Below are positions 24,568 through 50,172 of a DNA stretch of 64,000 nucleotides, piece by piece. The position numbers and the translations under genes were made by a program. The stretch lies in contig JAUTCS010000104.1 in assembly GCA_030673825.1 (NCBI GenBank), positions 1 to 64,000 on the forward strand, given 5' to 3'. Below the pieces are notes generated by a model. That model had not been told where the DNA came from. It searched no databases and saw only the letters and a program-made list of their open reading frames with translations. Origin of the DNA: Verrucomicrobiota bacterium JB024 (GTDB taxonomy: Bacteria > Verrucomicrobiota > Verrucomicrobiia > Opitutales > Cerasicoccaceae). Numbering within the stretch: the first letter of the stretch is position 1; each line of letters starts with the position of its first letter.

Positions 24568-25272
24568 GTGCACATCCTGCCCACACGCACCGCCAGGTCC
24601 GCCGCCAACATGGCCACGGACCTGATGCTGCTGGAGTCGTATCCAAAACCGGATACGCCGCGTTTGCGGCACTACGGATGGAGTGGCCCGGCGTGGAGCT
24701 TCGGGCTGTCGCAGACATTTAACGAAACCCACGAGCGCATTTTGGCTCTGCCCTGTGAACTGGTGCGCCGCCCCACCGGCGGCGGGCTCGTGGACCATCT
24801 CGACGACTGGACCTACGCGCTCGTCGTCCCACCGGGGGCGCGCGGCTACCGCGACGGCCCCGCCGCGCTCTACCGGCTCGTCCACGAGCAGATCGCCGCC
24901 GCCTTCGCCGCGCAGGGGCTGGCCAGTGTATTGCACGCAGTCAAAAGCACCGACGGCCTGCACGCGGTTTGCTTCGAGCAGCCGGAGCAGTACGACCTCA
25001 CCCTGCCCGGCGGCGCGAAAATCGCCGGGGCCGCCCAGAAGCGCACCCGCGACGGCCTGCTCGTGCAGGGCAGTATCACCCGGCGCCTCCCCGTATCCAT
25101 AAACTGGATACAGTTCGCCGACGATTTCGCCGTCGGGTTGTCACAACTTTTCGGTACATCTCCCGCCCCCGCCCCCGGGCCCGCCTGGGACGAGCAACGC
25201 CTCGCCCGCGAGACCGCCCGCTTCGCCTCCGAGGCGTGGAACAAAAAACGGCGACACGTGCTCGACGTTTAA
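24568..25272 (+). CDS. Lipoate/octanoate protein transferase family (BPL/LplA/LipM-like)
   Basis: The 234-residue protein has RRPTGGGLVDH near residue 66, the lipoyl-binding motif of LplA and LipM (RRxTGGGAVxH). It is followed by CFEQPEQYDL and KIAGAAQKR. The Cys before EQPEQYDL lies where LipM octanoyltransferases carry their catalytic cysteine; LplA ligases lack it. The expected role is attaching octanoyl or lipoyl groups to the lysine of E2 or GcvH proteins. The start is GTG at 24568 (VHILPTRTARSAANMATDLM), which aligns with the usual family start; ATG at 24610 would cut this. A candidate substrate, gcvH, is at 45109. Confidence 0.82.
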   Translation: MHILPTRTARSAANMATDLMLLESYPKPDTPRLRHYGWSGPAWSFGLSQTFNETHERILALPCELVRRPTGGGLVDHLDDWTYALVVPPGARGYRDGPAALYRLVHEQIAAAFAAQGLASVLHAVKSTDGLHAVCFEQPEQYDLTLPGGAKIAGAAQKRTRDGLLVQGSITRRLPVSINWIQFADDFAVGLSQLFGTSPAPAPGPAWDEQRLARETARFASEAWNKKRRHVLDV

Positions 25273-25294: not shown

Positions 25295-25347
25295 AGGGCA
25301 CGCCCTTCACCCTAGATGCTTCGTATCTGAATGGGGCTACGCCCCAT
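25295..25347. repeat. Cluster of three short-loop palindromes
   Basis: Three palindromes follow one another: AGGGCACGCCCT (25295-25306), AGATGCTTCGTATCT (25314-25328) and ATGGGGCTACGCCCCAT (25331-25347). Each has a 2-3 nt loop. The first two recur in the same order, with small changes, at 27917-27952. They lie 22 nt past the stop of the lipoate-transferase-like gene. Confidence 0.7.
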
Positions 25348-25373
25348 ATAGGCAGGAACCATTCCTCCCAATA

Positions 25374-25522
25374 AAGGTGGCGACCCAGTTTTGATGTCTT
25401 CGCTCAGCGATTACTGAAAATGAGCGACGCTCATTTTCAGTAATCGCTGACACGATGCGCCAGCATCGAAAGTGCAGGCTGTGCCTGCTGCGGGTCTGGG
25501 CTGCAGCCCAGGAAAAAAAACA
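25374..25522 (+). repeat. Multi-hairpin dispersed repeat, copy 1
   Basis: This 149 bp element is about 90 percent identical to 37452-37598. It starts AAGGTGGCGACCCAGTTTTG and contains four hairpins. The largest pairs 25404-25425 with 25429-25450, a perfect 22 bp stem with a 3 nt loop. Then come CGATGC/GCATCG (25453-25468), GCAGGC/GCCTGC (25474-25488) and CTGGGCTGCAGCCCAG (25496-25511), followed by an A run. It lies 21 nt past the stop of the RlmD-like gene, so in the direction of that gene the T run comes first and the large stem last. Confidence 0.85.
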
Positions 25523-25543: not shown

Positions 25544-26806
25544 CTACCCCAGCCGGAGGACGGCGACGTTCTCGATGTGGCGGGTCTGGGGGAAGAGGTC
25601 GAAGGGCTGGACCTCCTCCAGCGTGTAGCCGCCGGCGAGGAGCATTTTCAGGTCGCGGGCCTGGGTGGCCGGGTCGCAGGAGACATAGACAACGCGGCGT
25701 GGACCGAGCGCGAGGAGCTGGCGGATGAACGCCTCGTCGCACCCGGCGCGGGGCGGGTCGATGACCATGGCGGTCTCGTCGCCGGGAAAGTCGATCTCGG
25801 AGAAAATCGACTGCGCCTCGCCGATGAGAAACTCGGCGTTGGTAATGCCATTAATGGCGGCGTTGGCGTTGGCCCACTTCACGGCGCTGGCGTTGACCTC
25901 GACCCCGGCTACGCGCTCGAAGCGCCGCGCCCCGCACAGGGCGAAAACGCCGACCCCGCAGTACGCGTCCACCAGGTAGCGCACGCCGTCCACGCAGGCA
26001 TGCTCCATCACGTAGTCCACCAGCTCGGGCAGGATGAACGGGTTGTTCTGGAAAAAATCGCCCGCCAAAAACTGGAACACGACCGGCCCGATTTTTTCGG
26101 TGACGGAGGCGTTGTTATCCGTGGTCACGCCCTCCAGCGTGTGACGCAGCAGGAGCGTGCCGCCCTTTTTCAGCTTGGCAGCACGGGCGCGGATACGCTG
26201 ACGCTCGGCGGGCAGGGCGTCGTTGATCGCCTCGGTGGCGATGGGGCACGCGGACACATCGACGATGCGGTTGCGCTGCCCCTGGTGCAGGAAGCCGATG
26301 GGCAGCTCGCGCGGTTGCTCCGGGGCTTCCGCGCCGGGCTTGGGCTTGAAAAGCTTCGGGTAGTGCGGGGTGAGTTTCGAGCGGTAATGATACTCGCGCG
26401 GGGAGCCGTGGGTTGGGTTGACCGGGTGGGTGATCCCGGCCAGGCGCACGAGCAGTTCGCCGACTTGCTGGCGCTTCCACTCGCGCTGCGCCGGGTAGCT
26501 CATGTGCTGGTACTGGCAGCCGCCGCACGTCCCAAACAACGGGCAGCGCGGTTGCACGCGCTCGGGCGAGGGCTCGACGATCTCCAGCAGGTCGGCGTCG
26601 GAGTGCTGCTTGTGGTTGCGGTAGATGCGCACGCGCACAAGCTCGCCCGGCAGCGCAAAGGGCACCATCACGACCCAGCCGTCCACGCGACCGAGCCCGG
26701 CCCCGAGGTTGGTCAGCGTGTCCACGCGCAGCTCCAGCTCCTCGTGATAGGCGAAGGGCTCGGGCTTGAAATTTTTCGGGGCCTGCGGCGAAGTCATAAC
26801 AGTCAA
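25544..26806 (-). CDS. 23S rRNA (uracil-5-)-methyltransferase, RlmD/RumA family
   Basis: The 420-residue enzyme has an N-terminal TRAM domain (about 20-85). The four-cysteine iron-sulfur site is in CPLFGTCGGCQYQHMSY near 88-104. The SAM domain shows VDAYCGVGVFAL near 289, and the catalytic pair is DPPRAGC near 345 and VVYVSCDPATQARDL near 372 (nucleophilic Cys in SCDP). It methylates uracil C5 in rRNA or tRNA by the TrmA/RlmD mechanism; U1939 of 23S rRNA is the usual RlmD target. Two in-frame ATGs (26806 and 26797) are equally plausible starts. The element at 25374-25522 lies in its 3' region. Confidence 0.92.
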   Translation of the reverse strand: MTVMTSPQAPKNFKPEPFAYHEELELRVDTLTNLGAGLGRVDGWVVMVPFALPGELVRVRIYRNHKQHSDADLLEIVEPSPERVQPRCPLFGTCGGCQYQHMSYPAQREWKRQQVGELLVRLAGITHPVNPTHGSPREYHYRSKLTPHYPKLFKPKPGAEAPEQPRELPIGFLHQGQRNRIVDVSACPIATEAINDALPAERQRIRARAAKLKKGGTLLLRHTLEGVTTDNNASVTEKIGPVVFQFLAGDFFQNNPFILPELVDYVMEHACVDGVRYLVDAYCGVGVFALCGARRFERVAGVEVNASAVKWANANAAINGITNAEFLIGEAQSIFSEIDFPGDETAMVIDPPRAGCDEAFIRQLLALGPRRVVYVSCDPATQARDLKMLLAGGYTLEEVQPFDLFPQTRHIENVAVLRLG

Positions 26807-27126: not shown

Positions 27127-27939
27127 ATGCCCGTGACCGACATCACCTCGCGCCAGAACCCCCGGCTCAAACAGACCATGCGCCTGCACGAGCGCAAGGG
27201 CCGCGCCGCCACCGGCCAGTTCATCGTCGAGGGGCGGCTGGAGCTGGCCCGCGCCCTGGAGGCCGGGCTCGCCTGCGACGAGTGCTGGCAGTGCCCCGAG
27301 TACGCCGGGTACGACGCCGCGCTCTCCGGGCAGCTCGCCGGGGCAGCCACTGAGACCTTCCGCGTGCCGCGGGCGGTCTTTGAAAAGCTCTCCGGGCGCG
27401 AAGGCTCCGACGGGCTCGCGGCGGTCTTTCACGCGCCCGCCGCCAACCTCGAGTCACTCACCCTCGGGCCCACGCCACTCATCGTCGTGCTCGAAGGCGT
27501 GGAAAAGCCCGGCAACCTCGGCGCGATCATCCGCAGCGCGGAAATCGCCGGAGCCGGGGCGGTCATCGTCAGCGGCGGCGCCGACCTGTACAACCCGCAC
27601 GTCATCCGCAACTCGCGCGGGCTCGTCTTCACCTTTCCCGTGCTGGCGATGGAGCCCGCCGACGCGCTCGCCTGGCTGCGCGGGCACGACATCCAGCTCT
27701 ACGCCACCACCCCGGCGGCCACCCTCCCCCACTGGAGCGCCGACCTCGCCGCCCCCTGCGCCCTGCTCATGGGCAGCGAGGCCGACGGGCTGAGCGAGTT
27801 TTGGCTAAAGCAGGCCGACGCGTGTATCCAGATTCCACTACAAGGGCACGGCGACTCGCTCAACGTCTCCGTCAGCGCCGCCGTCGTCCTCTTCGAAGCC
27901 GTCCGCCAACGCCAGGCAGGGCGCAGCCCTGCACCCTAG
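27127..27939 (+). CDS. TrmH/SpoU family RNA 2'-O-methyltransferase
   Basis: The 270-residue protein has an N-terminal substrate-binding domain (SRQNPRLKQTMRLHERKGR, FIVEGRLELARAL). The SPOUT knot follows: VVLEGVEKPGNLGAIIRSAE near 120-140, then CALLMGSEADGLSEFWLKQ and IPLQGHGDSLNVSVSAAVVL, the three SpoU motifs. It should methylate a ribose in rRNA or tRNA; the exact site cannot be read from the sequence. The last residues (RQAGRSPAP) and the TAG stop are encoded by a palindrome cluster (27917-27952), so insertion of that element has probably rewritten the C-terminus. Confidence 0.9.
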   Translation: MPVTDITSRQNPRLKQTMRLHERKGRAATGQFIVEGRLELARALEAGLACDECWQCPEYAGYDAALSGQLAGAATETFRVPRAVFEKLSGREGSDGLAAVFHAPAANLESLTLGPTPLIVVLEGVEKPGNLGAIIRSAEIAGAGAVIVSGGADLYNPHVIRNSRGLVFTFPVLAMEPADALAWLRGHDIQLYATTPAATLPHWSADLAAPCALLMGSEADGLSEFWLKQADACIQIPLQGHGDSLNVSVSAAVVLFEAVRQRQAGRSPAP

Positions 27940-27979
27940 ATGCTTCGCATCTGGATGCCTTTGCCTGGAGCAATGGCAT
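27917..27979. repeat. Palindrome cluster overlapping the SpoU gene end
   Basis: CAGGGCGCAGCCCTG (27917-27931) and AGATGCTTCGCATCT (27938-27952) repeat the order of the cluster at 25295. A looser stem follows with arms ATGCC and GGCAT (27955-27979), recalling the third palindrome at 26894. The SpoU stop codon is 27937-27939. The rest of the 340 bp to 28279 carries two further repeats described separately and no gene. Confidence 0.65.
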
Positions 27980-28119
27980 GGACGGGTGTTTCGTGTGCGC
28001 AGGATAAGCGTATGCCGCTAGGTGCGGTGAGAAAAGTATTGAAAAATAACTACACCAGAGCGGACACATCGATGGGTCTCCGCGCACAGCCTGCTGAACG
28101 GACCCGAAAAAATACCGAA

Positions 28120-28167
28120 CCGGGAGATCCTTCGACTCGCTGCGCTCGCTCAGGATGACAACGGTGT
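28120..28167 (+). repeat. ATCCTTCGACT-type dispersed repeat, copy 1
   Basis: The unit runs CCGGGAGATCCTTCGACTCG, then a short palindrome CTGCGCTCG, then CTCAGGATGACAACGG. An inverted copy lies at 50043-50087 and a diverged one at 50126-50172. Similar repeats are widespread in bacterial genomes of several phyla. Directly after it, 28220-28265 carries a degenerate stretch of the CACAGAG family (CTCCGTG and TCTCTGTG words). Confidence 0.7.
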
Positions 28168-35696: not shown

Positions 35697-37259
35697 ATGG
35701 CCACGGACAACGCCTCCACTCCCACCATGGACACCCTGATCGCCCTGTGCAAACGGCGCGGTTTCGTTTTCCCGTCTTCGGATATCTACGGCGGCTACAA
35801 CGGCTTTTTCGATTTCGGCCCGCTGGGCGTCGAGGTGAAGAACAACATCAAGCAGGCCTGGTGGAAGGACTTCGTCCACCGCCGCGACGACATCGTCGGC
35901 CTCGACTCCACCATCATCATGCACCCGAAGATCTGGGTCGCCTCCGGCCACGTCGGCGGCTTCTCCGACCCCATGGTGGACTGTAAGGAGACCAAGCTCC
36001 GCTACCGCGCCGACCAGCTCTTTTTCCAGCAGTTCACCTTCACGCCTGATGGCGAGGGTGACGCCGTCAACCACTTTGTCGTGGTCGTGGAGGCCGACGA
36101 TATGACCACCGCCCTCGCCGAGCGCGCCGCCAAGGTCGCCAAGCTCCTGGGTAAGGAAGTCGGTGGCAAGGTCCGTGGCGCACCCGCCGAAGGTGCCGCG
36201 GTGATCGAGTTTACCGAGTCCACCGCCGAGCAGCGCGAGGCCGCCTTCGGTCCCGACGCCACCGCCGCCGGCACCCTGACCGAGCCGCGCGACTTCAACC
36301 TGATGTTCGAGACCAAGGTCGGCCCCCTCGCGGACAAATCCGCCACCGCCTACCTGCGTCCCGAAACCGCCCAGGGGATTTTCGCCAACTACCGTAACGT
36401 GGTGGACACGGGCCGCGTCAAGGTGCCCTTCGGCATCGCCCAGGTCGGCAAGGCCTTCCGCAACGAGATCACGCCGCGCAACTTCCTGTTCCGCTCGCGC
36501 GAATTCGAGCAGATGGAGATCGAGTACTTCATCCAGCCCGACGCCGACTGGCAGACCCTGCACCGCGAGTGGATCGACACCTGCATCAACTGGCTCGTCT
36601 CCATCGGCCTGCCCCGCGAGGGCATCGGCGAGGACGTGCACCCCGCCCACAAGCTTTCCCACTACTCCAAGGGCACGACCGACCTGACCTTCCGCTTCCC
36701 GCACGGGGTGCAGGAACTGTGGGGCATCGCCTGCCGCGGAGACTTTGACCTGACCCAGCACCAGGAGCACTCCGGCAAGTCCATGGAATACTTCGACGAG
36801 CAGCAGAAGCAGAAGTACGTCCCGCATGTGATCGAGCCCTCGCTCGGCGTGGACCGGACCTTCCTGGCCGTGCTTTCGGCCGCCTACTGCGAGGACGAAA
36901 TCCCCAACGACAAGGGCGAGCCCGAAAAGCGCAGCCTGATGAAGTTCCATCCGCGCATCGCCCCGTACAAGGTGGCCGTCTTCCCGCTGGTCAAGAACAA
37001 GCCCGAGCTGGTCGAGCACGCCCGCAAGCTCTACGAGCGCCTGCAAAACCGCTGGAATGTCTTCTGGGACGTGTCCGGGGCCATCGGCCGCCGCTACCGC
37101 CGCCAGGACGAGATCGGCACGCCCTTCTGCGTCACGGTGGACTTCGACACGATCGAGCAGGGCACCGGCGTCACCGTCCGCGACCGCGACACCACCCAGC
37201 AAATCCGCCTCTCCGAAGACGAGCTGCTCGCCTACCTCTCCGAGAAGATCGACGGGTAG
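35697..37259 (+). CDS. glyQS: Glycyl-tRNA synthetase, single-chain dimeric type
   Basis: The 520-residue class II enzyme charges tRNA-Gly. It shows [20 protein letters not shown], motif 1 region [16 protein letters not shown], motif 2 [35 protein letters not shown], and motif 3 in [16 protein letters not shown]. The anticodon-binding domain follows from about residue 420 ([11 protein letters not shown]). This is the alpha2 type shared with archaea, eukaryotes and Gram-positives, not the alpha2-beta2 GlyQ/GlyS type of Proteobacteria. An Ala/Glu-rich insert lies at about 120-200. Its 3' end is directly followed by a run of palindromes. Confidence 0.96.
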
Positions 37260-37260
37260 G

Positions 37261-37400
37261 AAACGCTCGGCGTTTCATCCGTTTCTTTGGGGGCTCCACG
37301 CCCCCAAACCACGCGGTGCATAACCGCACAGGACATTTTCGATGCTACGCATCGTATTAACGAATAGGCCGACCGGCAGATACCGGTCGGCCTATTCGTT
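37261..37400. repeat. Run of five palindromes after the glycyl-tRNA synthetase gene
   Basis: In order: AAACGCTCGGCGTTT (37261-37275), a 9 bp stem TTTGGGGGC/GCCCCCAAA (37286-37308), GCGGT/ACCGC (37313-37327), CGATGCTACGCATCG (37340-37354), and a perfect 18 bp stem from AACGAATAGGCCGACCGG (37359-37376) with a 6 nt loop and its complement (37383-37400). None is followed by a T run. Together with the element at 37452 they fill most of the 360 bp between convergent genes. Confidence 0.75.
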
Positions 37401-37451
37401 GAGCCAGACATCACAGTGACCGCTCCGACTCGCGGACTTTCGCCAGGAAGT

Positions 37452-37598
37452 AAGGTGGCGACCCAGTTTTGATGCTTTGCTCAGCGTTTACTGAAATGAG
37501 CTGCGCTCATTTCAGTAAACGCTGACACGATGCGCAGCATCGAAAGTGCAGGCTGTGCCTGCTGCGGGTCTGGGCTGCACAAGCCCGGAAAAAGACAT
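37452..37598 (+). repeat. Multi-hairpin dispersed repeat, copy 2
   Basis: This copy matches 25374-25522. Its main stem pairs 37481-37501 with 37505-37525, 21 perfect base pairs and a 3 nt loop. CGATGC/GCATCG (37528-37542), GCAGGC/GCCTGC (37548-37562) and GGGCT/AGCCC (37572-37586) follow. Relative to copy 1 an A-T pair is swapped to T-A and another A-T pair is deleted, each on both arms, so pairing is kept. It ends 21 nt past the recJ stop codon, as copy 1 does for the RlmD-like gene. Confidence 0.85.
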
Positions 37599-37619: not shown

Positions 37620-39320
37620 CTAGCGCCAGTCCACCAGTTCCAGACGCGGGCTGCGGCGGCCGTTCCAGACGTTCCAGGTGAAGCGGACGGCGAGGTCGAT
37701 GGGCTGGCCGGCTGGGGGCGGGTTGGCGGCGCCGTTCCAGGCGATGCCCTGCACGCGGCGACCATGGCCACCGGTCAGGTCGAAGCGCAGGTGTTTTTGG
37801 GCAAAGACTTCCGGCGGGCGGGAAAGCCGGGCCTGCTTAATGCCAAGGACGGGCTCGGGGTTTTCCTGGCCAAAGGGGCGCATCTGGTCGAGCTGGTCGA
37901 GCAGGCGCTCGTCAAGTTCGCGGGGCTCGACCCAGGCGTCGATGGTCAGGCTCGGCTCGGGCGGCGTGTCCCCGAGGCACTGCCCCACCCGCTCGGCGAA
38001 GGCCGCGCGAAACTCCGGCAGGCGGTCCTTGGCGAGGGTGACGCCCACGGCCATGCGGTGGCCGCCCCACTCCTCCAGCAGGCCGTCGCAGCCGTGGAGG
38101 ATTTCCTGCAAATCGACTTCAGGGATGCTCCGGCCCGACCCGCGCAGGAGGTCGCCGTCGGTGCTCAGGACGATGGCCGGGCGGTAAAAGCGGCGGGCGA
38201 GCCGTCCGGCGACGATCCCGACGACGCCGGGGTGCCAGTCGGCCCCGGCGGCCACGAGAGCGGCGGGCACGGTTCCCTCATCAAAGTCCGCCGCGGCGGC
38301 GGCGAAGACACCCCGCTCGATGGACTGGCGCTCGCGGTTAAGCGCGTCCAGCTCGGCGGCGGCGGCGATGGCGCGACTCTTTTTCTCGGCCAGAAGCATT
38401 TCCACAGGCAGGGCGGCGTCGGCCAGACGGCCCCCGGCGTTCAGGCGCGGGCCGAGGCGGTAGGCCACATCGGCGGCGTAAAGCGGATGGTCCGGCCCCA
38501 GCCCCGACACCTCCAGCAGCGCGGAGAGACCGGGGCGGCGCCCGGAGGCGAGCTGCTTGAGCCCCTCGCGGGCGAAGATGCGGTTCTCGCCGCGCAGGGG
38601 GACGAGGTCGGCGATGGTGCCGAGCGCCACCAGGTCGAGGGCGTGCTTGAGCTTGAGATCGTAGGCGCGCGGATCGTCGAGCTGGCGCAGGCGCATGACC
38701 AGTGCGTGCACAAGCTTGAAGGCCAGGCCCGCCGTGCACAGGTCGCGCGCGGCCTCGTCACCGGGGGTGGCGTAAAGTTTCGGGTTGATCAGCAGACAGT
38801 CGGCGGGGACGGCCTCCTTGGACTCGTGGTGGTCAACGATGATCACGTCGATCCCGCGCTCGCGCAGGCGGGCCACCTCGGCCACGGAGTTGGTGCCACA
38901 GTCCAGCGCCACGAGCAGGTCCGGCGGGTCGCCAGTCAGCACGCGGTCGAGCATGGTGTCGCTCAGGCCGTAGCCCTCCTCCAGGCGGCGCGGCACCTGA
39001 TAGACCGGGGACGCGCCGAAGTGGCGCAGCATGCTCACCAGCAGCGCTGTGCTGGTCATGCCGTCCACGTCGTAGTCACCGATGACGAGGATGTCCTCGC
39101 CGCTGCGGATGGCGGCGATCAGCCGCTCCACCGCCTCGGCGACAAAGCTCAGCTCAAACGGGTTGCTCAGGTGCTTCAGACGCGGGTCCAGAAAGGTCGC
39201 CGCCGGGGCGATCTGCGGGAGGCGCGATGCCAGCAGCGCGGCCAGCACCCCGTCCACCCCGAGCTCCGAACGCAGTTGGCGTACTGCCGAGTTCGGAGGC
39301 GGGGTGTGGATCCAGCGCAT
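37620..39320 (-). CDS. recJ: Single-stranded-DNA-specific exonuclease RecJ
   Basis: The 566-residue DHH-family nuclease degrades single-stranded DNA 5' to 3' in recombination and mismatch repair. Metal motifs are visible: ILVIGDYDVDGMTSTALLV near residue 78, ALDCGTNS near 140, IIVDHHESKE near 160, and PRLNAGGRLADAALP. The DHHA1 motif GGHRMAVGVTLAKDRL lies near 420, followed by a C-terminal OB-like domain ending RSPRLELVDWR. Length and motif order are normal. It lies 11 nt downstream of secDF on the same strand, so it may share the yajC-secDF transcript. Confidence 0.95.
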   Translation of the reverse strand: MRWIHTPPPNSAVRQLRSELGVDGVLAALLASRLPQIAPAATFLDPRLKHLSNPFELSFVAEAVERLIAAIRSGEDILVIGDYDVDGMTSTALLVSMLRHFGASPVYQVPRRLEEGYGLSDTMLDRVLTGDPPDLLVALDCGTNSVAEVARLRERGIDVIIVDHHESKEAVPADCLLINPKLYATPGDEAARDLCTAGLAFKLVHALVMRLRQLDDPRAYDLKLKHALDLVALGTIADLVPLRGENRIFAREGLKQLASGRRPGLSALLEVSGLGPDHPLYAADVAYRLGPRLNAGGRLADAALPVEMLLAEKKSRAIAAAAELDALNRERQSIERGVFAAAAADFDEGTVPAALVAAGADWHPGVVGIVAGRLARRFYRPAIVLSTDGDLLRGSGRSIPEVDLQEILHGCDGLLEEWGGHRMAVGVTLAKDRLPEFRAAFAERVGQCLGDTPPEPSLTIDAWVEPRELDERLLDQLDQMRPFGQENPEPVLGIKQARLSRPPEVFAQKHLRFDLTGGHGRRVQGIAWNGAANPPPAGQPIDLAVRFTWNVWNGRRSPRLELVDWR

Positions 39321-50042: not shown

Positions 50043-50172
50043 CCGTTGTCATCCTGAGCGAGCAACGCGAGTCGAAGGATCTCCCGGTACGGATTTTCAT
50101 GAACCTGCTCCGCTGGCAGCGTGAGGAGATCCTTCGATGCGTCCGCTGCGCGGACTTACTCAGGATGACAAC
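50043..50172. repeat. Inverted pair of ATCCTTCGACT-type repeats in a 368 bp gap
   Basis: 50043-50087 is the reverse complement of the unit at 28120-28167 (GTTGTCATCCTGAGCGAGC, then CGAGTCGAAGGATCTCCC). 50126-50172 is a forward, diverged copy (GAGATCCTTCGATGCG, then CTCAGGATGACAAC) with the palindrome GTCCGCTGCGCGGAC inside. The two face each other around about 38 nt, so a transcript could fold into one long stem. Nothing else is recognised between 49933 and 50300. Confidence 0.7.

Follow-up and report, generated by a model that had tools for sequence, protein, structure and literature searches.

The multi-hairpin element at 25374-25522 of the window (the whole 64,000-nucleotide stretch of DNA that was analysed) is a copy of a repeated unit, here called module A. 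We consider it probable that short, non-autonomous MITE-like repeats have module A as their hairpin core, that their stems are palindrome-corrected and that they are kept at convergent 3′ regions. That it constitutes a dispersed repeat family is near certain: the original prediction described a two-copy element, and instead we find scores of copies per genome.

Copies, host range and anatomy of module A

A DNA search returned ~40 copies from G000, the window's own genome. The covariance-model search for which the original prediction had called recovered many dispersed copies in this genome and in its congeners G001, G002 and G003 (order Opitutales, Verrucomicrobiota), with stems compensated throughout. 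The matches number at least 120 in G000, 130 in G001, 47 in G002 and 21 in G003, counts that take in partial, diverged and antisense-hairpin matches and, with a ceiling on the candidates scored per genome, are lower bounds. For detailed analysis we used 100 strong copies, 48 from G000 and 52 from G001. Outside the genus there were weak matches alone, chiefly in sister genus G005, and the family is essentially restricted to one Opitutales genus. An exact-pattern scan of named genomes gave no hit; the assignment to Opitutales comes from a prolyl-tRNA synthetase-like protein of the window, whose nearest named records are 67-68% identical. No match in the window exceeded an Rfam gathering score, with sub-threshold miRNA-like hairpin matches at most, and a known RNA family was rejected on this ground; plasmid or phage origin was likewise rejected, there being no plasmid or phage match. 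Many G000 contigs (C1, C11, C45, C93, C94, C135 and C145) stop less than ~200 bp from a copy of module A, and these assembly breaks are therefore probably due to the repeats.

Module A is ~140 bp in size and makes up one half of a larger unit in which small hairpins are arranged as a mosaic. It has a head, GGTGGCGACCCAGTTTTGATG, then the long hairpin (21-22 bp, 3-nt loop), the CGATGC/GCATCG hairpin and GAAAGTGCAG. A hairpin of the GCAGGC/GCCTGC type comes next, with CTGCGGGT between it and the terminal hairpin; GACCC/GGGTC pairing is possible around the whole module. To its left lies either an inverted, diverged partner, such as that at 37287-37431 for copy 2, which the original prediction overlooked, or a mosaic built from different small hairpins, as in copy 1 and most G001 copies. 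The left-half modules of copy 1 include a related direct repeat (25302/27926), and the same modules are found left of many G001 copies. The small hairpin module CCCTAGATGCTTCGCATCTGGATG occurs at 25302-25333 and 27926-27957 and is common in the mosaic left halves of G001.

The two window copies, copy 1 (25374-25522) and copy 2 (37452-37598), can be aligned over ~145 nt, and both fold far above dinucleotide shuffles (z ~ -7 on either strand, 0/200 shuffles equal). All four hairpins claimed for copy 1 are present, namely the long stem and those formed by CGATGC/GCATCG, GCAGGC/GCCTGC and CTGGGC/GCCCAG (Table 1); the long stem may alternatively pair over 23 bp with a 1-nt loop instead of 22 bp with a 3-nt loop. 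Aligning the copies also bore out the claim of a swapped and a deleted pair between their stems. The former exchanges A-T for T-A (CGATTAC vs CGTTTAC), the latter distinguishes AAAATGAGC from AAATGAGC, and both are compensated on the opposite arm.

Table 1. Module A copies, their component hairpins and the converging genes in the window.
Feature	Position	Strand	Details or basis
LipB-like gene, converging on copy 1 from left	24568..25272	+	PF21948, PF03099
Left half of copy 1 mosaic: other small hairpin modules AGATGCTTCGTATCT, ATGGGGCTACGCCCCAT	25296..25360	.	Sequence
Module A, copy 1	25372..25512	+	Entire covariance-model match, 138.8 bits
Long hairpin, copy 1	25404..25450	+	22 bp, loop GAC; perfect inverted repeat
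Second hairpin CGATGC..GCATCG, copy 1	25453..25468	+	Sequence and consensus fold
Third hairpin GCAGGC-TGT-GCCTGC, copy 1	25474..25488	+	Sequence and consensus fold
Terminal hairpin CTGGGC..GCCCAG, copy 1	25496..25511	+	Then A-tract on +; sequence and consensus fold
RlmD-like uracil-5 methyltransferase gene, converging on copy 1	25544..26797	-	PF05958, PF01938
Class II aminoacyl-tRNA synthetase gene (ProRS type), converging on copy 2 from left	35697..37259	+	PF00587, PF03129
Inverted, diverged partner of copy 2, head to head	37287..37431	-	56.9 bits, E 7e-12
Module A, copy 2	37450..37589	+	159.7 bits (covariance model)
Long hairpin, copy 2	37481..37525	+	21 bp, loop TGC
Second, third and terminal hairpins, copy 2	37528..37588	+	Sequence and consensus fold
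RecJ gene, converging on copy 2	37620..39320	-	PF01368, PF02272, PF17768

Individual copies elsewhere carry further rearrangements. A hairpin of ~20 nt, GGTCCGGCTGGACCAGCATT, is nested in the loop of the third hairpin at L010 (C137a) 1501-1655 and in L031 (C137b). The copy at L116:14163-14334 has lost its long hairpin by a deletion that runs almost precisely from one flank to the other, the pattern expected from replication slippage at a hairpin. A separate dispersed repeat of 55 nt, GAGATCCTTCGACTCGCTGCGCTCGCTCAGGATGACAACGG, unrelated to module A, is present at 28110-28164 and 50043-50097 of the window, the two being 89% complementary.

Stem variation and its possible origin

The 21-22 bp stem is represented by 88 distinct arm sequences among the 100 copies, and 1959 of its 1986 pairs are Watson-Crick, the remainder being G-T (8), A-C (4) or other (15). 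The 21-bp stems of G001 differ from the consensus at 115 arm positions (67 by transversion vs 48 by transition), yet they contain no more than 3 non-Watson-Crick pairs. Pairing holds in 99.2% of cells of a curated alignment, with double changes in 118 cells vs 31 in shuffles, and falls to 35-39% when one arm is slid by one column. Neither strand is favoured in the pairing. The view that selection or a copying mechanism preserves the structure is thus upheld by compensated stems across many dispersed copies.

Selection at the RNA level is expected to pass through G-U intermediates and to yield double changes that are mostly transitions. The scarcity of G-T pairs and the excess of transversions therefore fit templated palindrome correction better, and from these sequence patterns we favour such correction over RNA selection as the probable source of stem perfection. 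The perfect stems would arise mainly at the DNA level, through polymerase template switching between the palindrome arms; an alternative source would be strong selection, acting either on a DNA cruciform or on RNA. Template switching between palindrome arms homogenises the arms, inverts spacers and generates the changes in both arms at once, with a transversion bias reported in bacteria (PMC8604942, PMC8794818). Module A resembles the outcome of this process (PMC8794818, PMC8604942) in its perfect arms, its double changes and, possibly, its inverted spacers. However, template-switch correction is a mutational process rather than a repeat family, and here it would be acting on scores of copies per genome.

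The loops give a further, suggestive sign. Among copies with identical inner arms the loop differs at 0.54 per site, vs 0.06 in the outer arm. Some of these loops are reverse complements of each other: copy 1 of the window has GAC where a copy sharing its inner arm has GTC, and one G000 group contains both GAA and TTC. Counted by pairs, loop inversion is enriched over random loop pairing; counted by cluster it is found in 4/15 clusters, which is within chance (P 0.21). Because the per-cluster count is not significant, loop inversion is no proof of template switching and is suggestive only. A bolder proposal, which we advance with low confidence, is that module A exemplifies a class of mobile hairpin in which the fold and not the sequence is the heritable trait, one arm being rewritten from the other via a single-stranded hairpin to give diverse yet perfect stems and a loop turnover far above that of the arms. 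Cleavage of the hairpin tip during replication or transposition might then drive both stem repair and spread.

Compensatory changes are usually taken as proof of RNA function, and the module A family is a caution for automated ncRNA discovery: within a single genome there are dozens of distinct, strongly covarying stems that have almost no G-U, no strand preference and, through the repeat, a partial tie to a DNA transposon. These stems offer a natural test set for distinguishing RNA selection from templated palindrome correction.

IS630 ends and candidate mobilisers

Module A occurs in two forms, form I with IS630-type ends and form II, which is end-less and includes both window copies. In G002 and G003 it usually occupies the inside of an element of ~208 bp whose inverted ends are TAGTGTnnnGTTAGCTAAGTTC (form I). 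These ends also flank intact insertion sequences of 1.15 kb in G002, which encode a 368-aa protein of the IS630 transposase family (NF033545, 264.8 bits; PF13358, DDE). The terminal inverted repeats are thus common to form I and the IS630 of the same genus, and 16 copies were scored at both ends, in a set comprising G002 and G003 copies plus one G000 copy, the latter an intact form I element that this genome keeps on contig C110. Most of these copies have TA at both ends, commonly as C-TA...TA-G, considering the element edges alone. Of the 13 form I copies of G002 whose gap was classified, 12 are in convergent gaps. Read on either strand, the CTAG target contains a TAG stop codon, and this may steer insertion to gene ends. 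Directly after an IS630 element in G002 (L357:2-1147, contig C1) lies a ~150 bp MITE (L357:1146-1297) that has IS630 ends and no module A, and which recurs at many places in that genome.

Mobilisation of form I by IS630 is well supported, and we propose that form I would be moved in trans by the G002-type transposase. This protein has six matches in G002 and a 78-residue fragment in G000, and zero matches in G001 and G003. No window copy reaches the score for IS630-type terminal inverted repeats, and ~95% of the G000 and G001 copies also fail to do so. Form II may be derived from the same mobile family or be moved by other machinery. The sampled stretches contained no autonomous partner for the window form; a search there for module tails facing outward 0.5-4 kb apart gave one candidate pair, which was rejected because the enclosed gene is ordinary and conserved in a congener without the element. 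Nor was a clean empty site found for any form II copy, the orthologous G000 and G001 gaps being different but not alignable. Taken together, a mobile origin of the module A family is likely. The suggestion of a mobile structured element accordingly stands as regards the many dispersed copies and the IS630 ends of form I, but not as regards a RAYT mobiliser. The IS630 system and the end-less mosaics carry one common hairpin cargo that settles at gene ends.

Placement at gene ends and rival readings

Mapping of insertion sites against stop codons, another check named in the original prediction, shows the copies to be concentrated at gene 3′ ends. In G001, copies occupy 34/162 convergent, 16/655 tandem and 1/162 divergent gaps; the sampled stretches were chosen around copies, which inflates these absolute rates, and no such bias is expected in the contrast among gap types. 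Convergent gaps are enriched with an odds ratio of 12.5 in G001 (p=1.5e-16) and 6.4 in G000 (p=2.6e-7), based on genes called by a self-trained dicodon model rather than a standard caller, with a few genes or starts wrong. Moreover, perfect hairpins with arms of at least 8 bp reach 3.2/kb in the convergent gaps of G001, against 0.12/kb in divergent gaps and 0.05/kb in genes. Module A copies avoid promoters, being nearly absent from divergent gaps. Both window copies lie in convergent gaps. They had been placed 21 nt past the stop of an unrelated gene, which is correct for the minus-strand stops at 25544 and 37620; as a fixed spacing or family signature this distance is rejected because that from stop to element in G001 is mostly 1-30 nt. 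Of 15 syntenic gaps with a copy in G000 or G001, 6 hold one in both genomes, 2 of them in opposite orientation, under biased sampling. A recR-like gene sits between two inverted module A copies in both G000 (L174:9261-10205) and G001 (L165:9863-10869). Copies may persist at convergent 3′ regions either because insertion is harmless there or because they provide a useful barrier to transcription or RNA decay.

The strong convergent-gap enrichment and the closeness to stop codons would also suit a functional 3′ RNA module, i.e. a transcribed barrier that ends or protects converging mRNAs and whose stems are selected on RNA. Consistent with this, recognisable intrinsic terminators are fewer in convergent gaps with an element (9/54) than in those without (58/150, p=0.004), and in one orthologous gap (L176/L138) G000 has a classical terminator where G001 has an element. 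A role as terminator or in the 3′ mRNA is compatible with the location and is possible. However, the same position bias is expected where insertion elsewhere harms, and module A travels inside the IS630 MITE as well. A test for intrinsic terminators on both strands found no U-tract after any element hairpin, the terminal hairpin being followed by A on the plus strand and preceded by a T-tract on the minus strand. Within the stems, G-T is hardly commoner than A-C (8 vs 4), transversions dominate and there is no strand preference. We therefore regard RNA-level selection of a 3′ module as unlikely.

Strand-symmetric perfect pairing with free sequence could also reflect selection of the stems as DNA hairpins or cruciforms to which a host protein or transposase binds, instead of a mutation bias. 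Such selection would, however, need to act on nearly every copy, including those with degraded heads, and we know of no binding partner; this explanation seems to us doubtful. Spread by a RAYT (Y1 transposase), in the manner of REP/BIME-type repeats, is very improbable. The inverted hairpin pairs and extragenic placement do recall BIMEs and REPINs, and G000 encodes Y1 transposases (PF01797: 4 matches, 3 over the cut-off). Against this, the search for a RAYT/TnpA-like transposase returned no PF01797 match in G001-G003, all of which carry the family, a GTAG or CGTC tag is absent from the foot of the stem in the alignments, and form I bears IS630 ends instead.

With MITE-like, palindrome-corrected repeats as the preferred reading, the module A family is a small interspersed structured repeat akin to RUP/BOX/SPRITE and REP/BIME, and what is unusual is a stem that is hypervariable yet perfect. 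RUP, BOX and SPRITE of Streptococcus pneumoniae are short, structured interspersed repeats that insert into one another; BOX has a modular build, RUP is believed to depend on an IS630 element for its movement in trans, and SPRITE is a possible terminator located close to the 3′ ends of genes (PMC3049150). Compared by description, module A shares with them short structured interspersed copies, modularity, an IS630 link and location at gene 3′ ends, whereas it has one form with IS630 ends and another lacking them, is rich in GC, shows no U-tract and has the hypervariable, perfect stem. REP/BIME/REPIN palindromes are associated with RAYT, and CGTC repeats are without a known transposase (PMC3733652). 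Extragenic palindromes, inverted pairs and high copy number are common to these repeats and module A, but the latter is longer, has multiple hairpins and carries no GTAG/CGTC tag; unlike for REP/BIME/REPIN, a RAYT is missing from 3/4 of its carrier genomes. Double-hairpin elements and GC clusters of fungal mitochondria are mobile-looking, with a fixed fold, variable sequence, compensated stems and mutual insertion. The likeness of module A to them is by description, theirs being organelle genomes and module A being bacterial.
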